IMG/VR virus record: IMGVR_UViG_3300026097_000832
Location: 1 to 23,465 of that record
Reading direction: 5' to 3' (one strand)
Length of the DNA: 23,465 nt
Source: a virus
The position numbers and the translations under genes are program-made. This document shows positions 5,867 through 19,360 of this stretch, one piece after another; position 1 is the stretch's first letter, and each line of letters starts with the position of its first letter. Below the pieces are notes generated by a model that saw nothing but the letters and a program-made list of their open reading frames with translations, was not told the origin of the DNA and did not search any database.

Positions 5867-6457
5867 TCAACCGAGACTTTTAATGAAGTCAAATTTATTT
5901 ACTGATTTTAAGTATTCAATTACCTGTTTAGGATCTGTTTCGCCGTATGGGTCGTCATCTTCGCCACAGTCATTTATGCCTGGCTCTTCAAACCATTTTT
6001 CAACTACGCCGTCTGTGATCACAGCCGCATAACGCCATGAACGGTTACCAAAGCCCACGTGATTCTTACAGACCAGCATACCCATACGCTGTGTGAACTC
6101 GCCATTGCCGTCTGGAATGAACTGAATGTTTTTAATGTCTTGGTCGATCATCCATTTACGCATTACGAAAGTGTCGTTCACTGAAACAACGTATACTTCG
6201 TCCACACCAAGATCTTTTATTTGATCGTAGAGTTCTTCAAAACCCGGAACTTGGTAGGTAGAGCATGTTGGCGTAAATGCTCCTGGCAGTGAAAATACAA
6301 CTACTCGCTTGTCTTTGAAAATGTCATTGCAGGTAACATCTTTCCAAGTAAAAGGATTATCGCCGCCGTTTGTAGTATCTACAAATGTAATGGGTTTGCC
6401 ATCTGTTCTGACACGATATTTAAAGGTTGTGTCTGGTACCTTAATGCCTTCTTTCAT
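5867..6457 (-). CDS. Peroxiredoxin, AhpC/Prx5-like
   Basis: 196 residues from the ATG at 6457, which has GGAG 8 nt upstream; the frame extends to 6496, but that part lies in a hairpin. The thioredoxin-like peroxidase signature is PGAFTPTCS (residues 58-66), with peroxidatic Cys at C65 and the conserved Thr three residues before it. VPGFEELYDQIKDLGVDEVYVVSVND follows in pieces, as in Prx5-type enzymes, and the conserved Arg lies in FGNRSWRYA. These enzymes reduce hydrogen peroxide and alkyl hydroperoxides in the cytoplasm, using thiol donors such as glutaredoxin. A glutaredoxin gene is present at 11231-11485. It follows the rubrerythrin gene, making a peroxide-detoxification pair. A hairpin with a short T-run (6474-6496) between them probably tunes readthrough. 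Confidence 0.85.
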   Translation of the reverse strand: MKEGIKVPDTTFKYRVRTDGKPITFVDTTNGGDNPFTWKDVTCNDIFKDKRVVVFSLPGAFTPTCSTYQVPGFEELYDQIKDLGVDEVYVVSVNDTFVMRKWMIDQDIKNIQFIPDGNGEFTQRMGMLVCKNHVGFGNRSWRYAAVITDGVVEKWFEEPGINDCGEDDDPYGETDPKQVIEYLKSVNKFDFIKSLG

Positions 6458-6473
6458 GTGTGTGTTTCTCCTT

Positions 6474-6496
6474 GAAAAGTGGACATCCCTGTCCAC
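6474..6496 (-). terminator. Short hairpin plus T4 tract between rubrerythrin and peroxiredoxin genes
   Basis: The minus strand GTGGACAGGGATGTCCAC (6496-6479) forms a 7-bp stem with a GGGA loop, followed by TTTT (6478-6475). It starts 7 nt after the rubrerythrin stop. The short T-run suggests a leaky terminator or an mRNA-stability hairpin, not a full stop. Confidence 0.5.
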
Positions 6497-6502
6497 TATA
6501 TA

Positions 6503-6937
6503 TTATGCGTTTTCTTCGTTGTATGCATCCAAAGTCTTCTTGAACTTGTTGGCATGAGAACGCTCTGCTTTGGCTAATGTTTCAAACCAATCAGCAATCT
6601 CATCATGGCCTTCTTCACGAGCTGTCTTTGCCATTCCCGGGTACATATCTGTGTATTCATGTGTCTCGCCAGCAATAGCACTTTCAAGAGCTTCTTGAAC
6701 ATTACCTGCCGCTAGGCCAGTTTCTGGATCACCTGAACCACCTTGGATTAGATACTCCATATGACCGTGTGCGTGGCCAGTTTCACCTTCTGCTGTGTTA
6801 CGGAATACATTGGCTACTTCCGGAGCACCTTCAATGTCCGCCATGTTTGCGAAGTAGAGATAACGGCGGTTGGCTTTTGACTCGCCTGCGAAAGCATCTT
6901 TCAATGCTTGTTCTGTTTTAGAACCTTTTAGACTCAT
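6503..6937 (-). CDS. Rubrerythrin-like diiron protein lacking the rubredoxin domain
   Basis: 144 residues from the ATG at 6937, with an AAGGAG ribosome-binding site. The four-helix ferritin-like diiron fold is supported by the paired metal-ligand motifs E19 ([11 protein letters not shown]), E52/H55 ([11 protein letters not shown]), E91/E94 (GETHEY) and E125/H128 ([10 protein letters not shown]). Canonical rubrerythrins add a C-terminal rubredoxin with four Cys; here the chain ends straight after the fourth helix and has no Cys. Electrons must therefore come from another donor. Such proteins act as cytoplasmic peroxide reductases. It has its own promoter (6970-6998), lies directly downstream of the tmRNA terminator and precedes the peroxiredoxin gene. 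Phage-borne rubrerythrin is uncommon in my knowledge. Confidence 0.9.
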
Positions 6938-6998: not shown

Positions 6999-7065
6999 CC
7001 GCAAATATTGCAAAAATCTATGTTATTTTTCTATAGGTGTGTTAGTTAAAATCTATTAACTGCGT

Positions 7066-7093
7066 ATAAAAAGAAAGCACCCGAAGGTGCTTC
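7066..7093 (-). terminator. Rho-independent terminator of the tmRNA, UUCG tetraloop
   Basis: The minus strand has GAAGCACC, loop TTCG, GGTGCTTT (7093-7074), giving an 8-bp stem closed by the very stable C(UUCG)G tetraloop, then TTTCTTTTTAT (7076-7066). It ends the tmRNA primary transcript and may define the 3' end of the coding piece. Confidence 0.85.
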
Positions 7094-7130
7094 CGGCTAT
7101 TTGGTAACAAGGTGGCCACCCCCGTAGCGA

Positions 7131-7160
7131 TCAAGCCGCTAGTGCAAAGTTTTGATTTGC
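7131..7160 (-). other. tmRNA proteolysis-tag reading frame ANQNFALAA
   Basis: Codons GCA AAT CAA AAC TTT GCA CTA GCG GCT TGA encode A-N-Q-N-F-A-L-A-A-stop. The resume codon is GCA, and the end ALAA matches the degron end recognised by ClpXP in E. coli (ANDENYALAA). The tag is one residue shorter than the E. coli tag. Confidence 0.92.
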
Positions 7161-7271
7161 AGTTATTTTAGTTTGCTTCTACGACCGGGTATACTCCCAA
7201 TCCTACGGCTTTCACATTGCCGGTAACTCCACTCGCCTAATTGCATCGCCGTCGAATCCTTGATCTGCCCC

Positions 7272-7345
7272 ATCATAGATACACCACGTTCTTCTCCTAC
7301 TATTTCAGCTTTCGCTCTACTGTTTCGGAGTTGTAGATGTATCTA
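7272..7345 (-). other. Intervening segment of the permuted tmRNA, removed on processing
   Basis: 74 nt between the CCA end of the acceptor piece and the GGGGCAG start of the coding piece. The terminal TAGATACA and TGTATCTA pair and extend the acceptor stem across a small internal loop. Processing by RNase P and tRNA 3' maturation enzymes is expected from known permuted tmRNAs. Confidence 0.8.
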
Positions 7346-7412
7346 TGGTGGAGCAGCCGGGAGTCGAACCCGGGTCCGTCAACCTTTCAGTCTGCTTCAT
7401 CGTTACAGTATT

Positions 7413-7441
7413 ATTTAACTATCTTTATCGCTGTCTGTCAA
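7413..7441 (-). promoter_or_regulatory. Probable promoter of the tmRNA
   Basis: A perfect TTGACA (7441-7436) inside the end of the preceding 64-codon gene, 17 nt, then TTAAAT (7418-7413); one base further, TAAATA also fits the late-promoter box. Transcription would start near 7405, just before the acceptor half. Confidence 0.5.
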
Positions 7442-7609
7442 GTCTTGAAATACAACTTCTTCTATCCAATTGTATGTTGCAAGTCTTTCTTGTTCTCTTT
7501 CTAACTGTTTGAGAGTAAGTTTTTGTTCGTATCCGTGTTCAAATCCGTGTTTCCACTTTATATCTACACGGTACTTTCTAGGGAGTGCTTCAAAGGTTCT
7601 GTCGTTCAT
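7415..7609 (-). CDS. Small uncharacterised phage protein (64 aa)
   Basis: 64 residues from the ATG at 7609, whose ATGA overlaps the stop of the previous small gene (7606-7773). Charged and probably compact: RKYRVDIKWKHGFEHGYEQKL, split by a helix (LKQLEREQERLATYNWIEEVVFQ), ending in an acidic tail. No family recognised. The tight start/stop overlap shows it is translated with its upstream neighbours as part of the chain 8988-7415. Its last codons carry the -35 box of the probable tmRNA promoter. Confidence 0.55.
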   Translation of the reverse strand: MNDRTFEALPRKYRVDIKWKHGFEHGYEQKLTLKQLEREQERLATYNWIEEVVFQDLTDSDKDS

Positions 7610-18525: not shown

Positions 18526-18554
18526 ATATTACTATCGTTCTAGACTTTTGTCAA
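18526..18554 (-). promoter_or_regulatory. Sigma70-type promoter giving a leaderless oxygenase mRNA
   Basis: TTGACA (18554-18549), 17 nt, TAATAT (18531-18526), then exactly 7 nt to the ATG at 18518. The -35 box contains the TGA stop of the nitrilase gene (18553-18551). No Shine-Dalgarno sequence is present. Confidence 0.75.
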
Positions 18555-19360
18555 GTGTGGTTTTGTGATGCTAATAAATTACCCCAGGGATGCATCTTTT
18601 CCATTGGTAACGTAACGGTGAAGTTATGCTGTCCAATTTCAGGGACGCCCGCTATCTTTTCACCCGCAACCCAACATCCGCTAGGAGATGAAGTTCTTCC
18701 ATTATAAGGTTCTCCTTTCATATGGCAACTATTGTCAACACTGATAACCACAATCCTAAAGATACTGCTTATCTGTTGTAACCAAGCAGTGTGCCAATCC
18801 CAATTAATCTGATCAATCAACACACCATTGCCGCGAGCACCATTCGTGCAATGTATTAGTATATTGACAGCACCCTCCTTCATATATTGATAAGGAAGGC
18901 AGGGCATTCCTCCGAGTGGACCTCCCCAGAAATCATTGCATACCATAACACCGGCAGAGATACCAGGATGATTAGGAAGTTGAATAGCATCGGTAGTTGG
19001 TGCAGGTTTACATCCTAACTGTATATCGTAAGGTATAATTTGGCTTTTTGGTTGATGATTTACAATCTTTCCTTGGTTGTTAATAATTAAACAATCGTTA
19101 TACAAGTCTTCCCCTTTTGCCATTGTACCTAGGAATAAACCTGTTTGTGTTTCTCTCGATGCATTTAGCACAATCTCTAATGCTTCATCGCATGACTCAT
19201 TCGCACAATTTTCTCCATAACCGCTCAGAGCACATTCTGGGGTGATTGCATAATCACACTCAGGATTATCATAAAGAGATCTAGAAATATGGTTGGCATT
19301 TCTAACACTGTTAGAAGTACAGTCCATCTGTATACCCAAGAATTTTAAATTATTAATCAT
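18551..19360 (-). CDS. Nitrilase-superfamily carbon-nitrogen hydrolase
   Basis: 269 residues from the ATG at 19360. The Glu-Lys-Cys triad of the nitrilase superfamily is placed at E42 (ITPECALSGYG), K105 (NHQPKSQIIPYD) and C141 (GVMVCNDFWGG). These enzymes hydrolyse nitriles or amides or remove carbamoyl groups, through a Cys thioester intermediate. The substrate cannot be read from the sequence. Cys content elsewhere is high (C14, C35, C43, C52, C57, C90, C117). Such an enzyme is unusual in a phage and could act on host nitrogen metabolism, a nucleotide precursor or a signal molecule. The gene has a sigma70-like promoter with 7 nt between -10 and ATG, hence probably leaderless, like its downstream neighbour. 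Confidence 0.88.
   Translation of the reverse strand: MINNLKFLGIQMDCTSNSVRNANHISRSLYDNPECDYAITPECALSGYGENCANESCDEALEIVLNASRETQTGLFLGTMAKGEDLYNDCLIINNQGKIVNHQPKSQIIPYDIQLGCKPAPTTDAIQLPNHPGISAGVMVCNDFWGGPLGGMPCLPYQYMKEGAVNILIHCTNGARGNGVLIDQINWDWHTAWLQQISSIFRIVVISVDNSCHMKGEPYNGRTSSPSGCWVAGEKIAGVPEIGQHNFTVTLPMEKMHPWGNLLASQNHT

Follow-up and report, generated by a model that had tools for sequence, protein, structure and literature searches.

tmRNA is the RNA that releases stuck ribosomes, and its split, two-piece form is rare. The spacer between CCA and GGGG should be discarded on maturation. To our knowledge, the excised part of a permuted tmRNA precursor has hitherto been regarded as waste, and we know of no established role for the tmRNAs of phages.

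Two-piece tmRNA genes have already been predicted in viruses, 53 of them among 18,146 phage genomes and 50 of these 53 from marine or aquatic samples (PMC9004378), and the tmRNA database holds 79 phage sequences (PMC11915505). The gene described here lies in a 23,465-base IMG/VR virus contig, the whole of which we term the window. The initial annotation presented it as a rare, phage-borne permuted tmRNA. The permuted phage tmRNA was confirmed, but its novelty had been overstated in view of the 53 published predictions. A permuted tmRNA in a phage is already known; the unusual part is the conserved, structured spacer.

The two-piece tmRNA of the Methylophilales phage Melnitz (MZ577097), a T4-like phage of aquatic bacteria, has been described in detail (PMC9004378). 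The window resembles Melnitz in having a permuted tmRNA with its own promoter (TTGACA-17-TATAAATA in Melnitz) and a long spacer (142 nt in Melnitz) closed by a helix with a UGAU end; the Melnitz tag is ANDNYVPVDYALAA. It differs from Melnitz in that the latter has an alpha-type body (106.7 bits with alpha_tmRNA), a spacer of unrelated sequence, and a glutamine riboswitch after the tmRNA, which the window lacks.

Unannotated permuted tmRNAs were found in DSS3P8, vB_RpoS-V10, RcXuper, MD18, RpAliso, RcSimone-Hastad, and Mesorhizobium phage Cp1R7A-A1; the deposited Roseobacter-type, Rhodobacter, and Mesorhizobium phage genomes concerned are L342, L343, L344, and L346-L349 in our numbering. The genes of DSS3P8, vB_RpoS-V10, RcXuper, and MD18, together with the annotated gene of DSS3_MAL1, are like that of the window in their long, hairpin-like, UGAU-ending spacers (98-111 nt in these phages) but unlike it in their alpha-type T arms and unrelated spacer sequences. 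In none of these five was a TTGACA/TATAAATA promoter found at the same place. Mycobacterium phage DS6A also carries a tmRNA-derived RNA, which is TLD-only with the tag part absent, whereas the window gene is complete (PMC4131195). Bacterial permuted tmRNAs (RF04321; RF01849 alpha, RF01850 beta, RF01851 cyano) have the same acceptor-spacer-coding order, G3.U70 pair, and tag frame as the window gene, which also shares a beta-like acceptor half and CCUUGUUACCAAA tail with them. Their spacers, however, are 2-53 nt long and poorly conserved, whereas that of the window is 74 nt long, structured, and conserved.

The permuted tmRNA gene of the window

An intact and complete circularly permuted tmRNA gene runs from position 7406 to about 7065 on the minus strand of the window (Table 1). 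In an Rfam scan, the model RF04321 (tmRNA_permuted) matched positions 7131-7406 over its full length (model positions 1-213 of 213) at 82.7 bits and an E value of 9.5e-15, the curated cut-off being 47 bits. ARAGORN, which is independent of Rfam, also called a permuted tmRNA with the tag ANQNFALAA. As in other RF04321 members, the acceptor half lies 5' of the coding half, the halves pair to give a tRNA-like domain with G3.U70, and the tag frame has an Ala-Ala end. Every element listed in the initial annotation was present, on the minus strand, including the pairing spacer ends, the TTGACA box, and the UUCG terminator. The whole precursor folded better than shuffled sequences (z = -5.2, with 0 of 100 shuffles as good), as did the acceptor-spacer part alone (z = -3.9, 0 of 200). 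The structure is not due to chance.

Table 1. Elements of the tmRNA locus in the window
Feature	Position	Strand	Content	Evidence
Promoter	7413..7441	-	TTGACA-17 nt-TTAAAT; overlaps last codons of upstream ORF 7415-7609	Sequence and positions
Promoter boxes	7441-7436; 7418-7413	-	TTGACA; 17 nt; TTAAAT	
Acceptor half	7346..7406	-	First piece transcribed, ~61 nt; T arm GGGTTCGACTCCC, acceptor 3' strand, encoded ACCA	Rfam RF04321; beta-type profile score
Acceptor 3' strand and ACCA	7356-7346		CTGCTCC + ACCA	
Spacer	7272..7345	-	74 nt	Model R1, window 103.5 bits; compensatory changes
Spacer closing helix	7345-7336/7285-7276			
Spacer inner helix	7330-7327/7297-7294			
Spacer GAAA hairpin	7316-7314/7309-7307			
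Spacer 3' end			UGAU directly before GGGG	
Coding half	7065..7271	-	GGGGCAG, TTCGACGG, pseudoknot region, tag frame, 3' tail, terminator	RF04321 and RF01850 alignments
Acceptor 5' strand	7271-7265	-	GGGGCAG	
Tag frame	7131..7160	-	GCA AAT CAA AAC TTT GCA CTA GCG GCT TGA = ANQNFALAA	ARAGORN and position
Intrinsic terminator	7065..7094	-	UUCG hairpin + T run	Scan

Among the clade models, beta_tmRNA (RF01850) was best for the window gene at 59.7 bits, a score below its cut-off of 84. The alpha_tmRNA model (RF01849, cut-off 50), which had been suggested initially, was not the best clade match, and the window gene does not qualify for that family; the genes of L215, L217, L003, L005, and Melnitz do. 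With profiles derived from the permuted genes of alphaproteobacteria (51 genes) and betaproteobacteria (26 genes), the acceptor half was beta-type (21.0 bits versus 9.5 bits for alpha) and the 3' tail beta-like. By sequence the gene looks beta-like and, being below the RF01850 cut-off, is not placed in that family.

Both strands of the acceptor stem were readable in 21 phage sequences. Seven distinct stems were found, all of them fully paired, with both sides changed at two positions; the G.U at the third acceptor pair, already noted initially in the window, was invariant as G3.U70 in all 21. Full pairing with changes on both sides and a fixed G3.U70 indicates that the gene is maintained as a tRNA-like structure, under selection, and is not a remnant. 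The initial annotation had likewise excluded a remnant, and the comparison with G001, a related viral contig, agrees: the two tmRNAs are 89.9% identical, versus 66-79% for the aligned flanks, with rubrerythrin the exception at 90%.

The window tag is one residue shorter than ANDENFALAA, which is encoded in related phages and in one betaproteobacterial tmRNA of the permuted kind. The unusual handling once envisaged for so short a tag is not suggested, since the NFALAA end is identical. In L215 (gene at 2592-2904) the tag, ANSNYAPMERMVA, has MVA in place of the terminal Ala-Ala and might not act as a normal degradation signal. A search of 13 phage records, most of them fragments, yielded no SmpB gene, and host SmpB would therefore be required.

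At the same place as the window promoter, TTGACA-17-TATAAATA occurs in L210, L214, L216, and L005, as in Melnitz, and TTGACG-17-TATAAATA in L215. The TTGACA-17-TATAAATA element of these relatives would suit host sigma-70 and appears to resemble a T4-type late promoter. A generic promoter scan of the window did not pick the exact pair TTGACA/TTAAAT. The upstream ORFs of the window (7415-7609) and L207 (8397-8681) look otherwise unrelated and have near-identical peptide ends (DLTDSDKDS and DLTDSKKDS), because the tmRNA promoter region encodes them. These ends place the boundary of a cassette immediately 5' of the -35 element. No relatives of the upstream 64-amino acid ORF were found.

Distribution and conservation of the spacer

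The same 74-nt spacer was found in nine other phage contigs, namely G001 (155,508 bases), G050 (182,329 bases), and the smaller L210-L212 and L214-L217; the L210 gene is cut off at the contig end, and the L212 sequence follows that of G001 across the gene. As detected with our model R1, the spacer occurs in one copy per record, solely inside permuted tmRNAs, and always between CCA and GGGG. It is present in beta-like genes (window, L206, L211, and L214) and in alpha-type genes (L215 and L217). A relaxed spacer pattern run against 2.9 million viral contigs gave, beyond the known members, just chance matches (L283-L288). The spacer core was absent from 84,980 bacterial and archaeal genomes, and the spacer was not found in 50,697 isolate phage records or 72,556 plasmids. 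Model R1, run without a positive control, detected nothing in 240 alphaproteobacterial genomes and 250 genomes of a sampled betaproteobacterial order. A second phage spacer family, of the L003/L004 type, was confined to those two contigs.

In 19 of the 21 phage permuted tmRNAs examined, the spacer measured 73-142 nt and the outer helix ran unbroken for at least 18 bp. Nine of these 19 had been recruited by a criterion based on the spacer or its length. Among the eleven phages besides the window that were found without a spacer criterion, long spacers were present in nine. The exceptions were L019 (8 nt) and RpAliso (30 nt). The spacer ended in UGAU before GGGG in 18 of the 19 long-spacer genes. 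The long outer helix was considered as a phage-specific trait and rejected, as 18 bp is also reached in bacterial precursors (19 of 51 alpha, 18 of 26 beta, 37 of 77 in all); because the helix is shared with bacteria, our claim is limited to how long and how conserved the spacer is.

Mean identity over five full genes was 0.92 for the spacer, 0.74 for the acceptor half, and 0.70 for the coding half, and the spacer exceeded both mature halves in nine of 10 phage pairs, values to be read with a bias toward conserved spacers, most members of the family having been recruited by spacer pattern. G001, which was found by a tmRNA model, and G050, which was found by a tmRNA pattern fixing the length of the spacer and not its sequence, have spacer identities to the window of 0.95 and 0.91, respectively. 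In bacteria the spacer is the most rapidly changing part of the permuted tmRNA. Its mean identity was 0.47 in one alphaproteobacterial genus and 0.37 across the alphaproteobacterial class, exceeding that of both halves in 0 of 253 and 0 of 406 pairs, respectively.

Seven distinct full spacers are known; aligned, they do not differ at 60 of 74 columns, among them columns in the loops. The stem of the GAAA hairpin occurs in three versions with both sides changed (AGC/GCU, ACC/GGU, and GUC/GAC). Either U-A or A-U stands at the base of the closing helix, and one further pair is U-G, C-G, or U-A. Across the spacer stems 99% of cells were paired, versus 31-53% with the partners slid. In the precursor the 7-bp acceptor stem continues via ACCA/UGAU, with one C.A mismatch, into the 10-bp helix of the spacer.

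Two other identities for the spacer were tried and rejected. A short leader peptide (AGGAG..GUG GUG UAU CUA UGA) loses its frame in L215 and other phages, and the motifs of hammerhead and pistol ribozymes misfit by eye, with no Rfam match.

In L214 (3544-3690) and L216 (7023-7150), 80-100 nt of the coding half are missing, TTCGAC and one of the two helix 2 strands among them. Both genes retain an intact acceptor half, spacer, and tag, and the losses lie at nearly the same place in different backgrounds. Not every copy, therefore, is able to form a normal tmRNA.

Proposed function and alternative explanations

From what was observed directly, the gene, its conservation, the covariation of its stems, and the distribution of its spacer, we infer a course of transcription, processing, and trans-translation and a role for the spacer. 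The gene would be transcribed during phage infection from its own promoter, with a start near 7406. The single precursor would fold as one long hairpin with ACCA facing UGAU, and host RNases would excise the spacer to leave an acceptor RNA of ~61 nt and a coding RNA of ~200 nt. These two RNAs would pair, be charged with alanine by host AlaRS via G3.U70, and bind host SmpB, and stalled proteins would be tagged with ANQNFALAA. According to the initial annotation, the RNA may act in infection by rescuing ribosomes on degraded host mRNA or by redirecting the tag. Most simply, the spacer would be a fold that presents both cleavage sites to nucleases of the host or the phage. We hold, with reasonable though far from full confidence, that the window gene yields a working two-piece phage tmRNA and that the spacer is under selection as a cis-acting processing element. 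Selection on the spacer is suggested by loops and stems more strongly conserved than the mature RNA. Judged from its sequence, the spacer probably has its own job in this phage group; a phage-only spacer with a slower rate of change than the working RNA points to function.

That function might reside in the spacer itself, either as an excised small RNA (a decoy or an anti-defence RNA) or as a ribozyme or ligand-binding RNA controlling its own release. The conservation of loops to the same degree as paired residues would fit such an RNA, as would the compensatory changes in the stems, the presence of the same element in alpha- and beta-type tmRNAs, and a possible CUAC/GUAG pseudoknot that would cross the CUCC/GGAG helix. 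However, the columns of this pseudoknot do not vary, no copy of the spacer was found outside a tmRNA, and comparison of positions 7272-7345 with Rfam, including its ribozymes and riboswitches, gave matches at chance level only, up to E = 10. We consider a functional RNA of this kind possible but doubtful. It is also rather unlikely, in our estimate, that the 74-nt spacer constitutes a separate functional RNA (a released small RNA, a decoy, or a self-acting element) maintained by phages inside the tmRNA transcript; were this so, the spacer would pass between alpha- and beta-type genes with the tmRNA gene as its vehicle. The high identity could instead signify youth and not function, if the spacer had recently spread among phage tmRNA genes by recombination. 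Such spread would accord with the small number of distinct spacers and with the mosaic make-up of phage tmRNAs. L003 (1938-2181) and L004 (4760-5003) have the spacer and coding half in common and acceptor halves of alpha- versus beta-type, and L205 and L211 combine beta-type acceptors with alpha-type 3' tails; by sequence, the halves of the permuted tmRNA have plainly been swapped between phages in the L003/L004 case. Yet in divergent genes the spacer is bounded precisely by CCA and GGGG, and the changes are compensatory or limited to a few sites, and we think a recent spread an unlikely explanation.

The phage tmRNA might alternatively not serve rescue at all and compete with or inhibit host tmRNA, for example through SmpB binding, or be a passenger. 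The TLD-only tmRNA of DS6A resembles tmRNA-inhibiting molecules (PMC4131195; PMC11915505), and L214 and L216 retain the tag without part of the coding half. This explanation appears improbable for the window, where no part is damaged, the tag has the usual ALAA end, the acceptor identity elements are kept, and the tmRNA is among the best conserved stretches in common with G001. We also weighed whether the contig was mis-assigned and the sequence comes from the host. Nothing in favour of this was found, although integration at tmRNA genes is common in bacteria. A host origin is very hard to credit for an IMG/VR virus record with NrdA/B, head protein, and other PHROG genes, whose gene order recurs in a 155-kb viral contig and whose spacer recurs in a 182-kb contig with T4-type gp23, the spacer core being in no bacterial genome searched.

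Genomic setting

The window carries genes for NrdA, NrdB, a head protein, PAAR, a 2OG-Fe(II) oxygenase, a MoxR-type ATPase, and a peroxiredoxin, PHROG genes among them. Its nearest relatives by VWA-type protein are two contigs at 82%. One of them, G001, has a permuted tmRNA in the corresponding position, the gene order being conserved, between nrdAB/PAAR and rubrerythrin/peroxiredoxin. The original assignment of the gene to a phage is thus upheld by a tmRNA that lies on a viral contig and is syntenic in a second one. In G050, which has a T4-type gp23 capsid gene, the tmRNA is near rubrerythrin and peroxiredoxin genes as well.

Acceptor type and host do not go together: RpAliso, a phage of Ruegeria, has a TTCGA-type T arm. 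The long-spacer body pattern returned just three unrelated genomes. An inference of the host was dropped, as the spacer core was in no genome searched, the three pattern matches were unrelated, and acceptor type is not host-linked. As the mosaic genes show, phage tmRNA genes are assembled from exchangeable halves, and this bears on the fitting of ribosome rescue to new hosts by phages.

In the window, rubrerythrin and peroxiredoxin genes (6503-6937 and 5867-6496) adjoin the tmRNA. The rubrerythrin has no PHROG family match, and its conservation between phages is about that of the tmRNA. A carbon-nitrogen hydrolase gene at 18551-19360 has a weak phage-family match (PHROG 36475).
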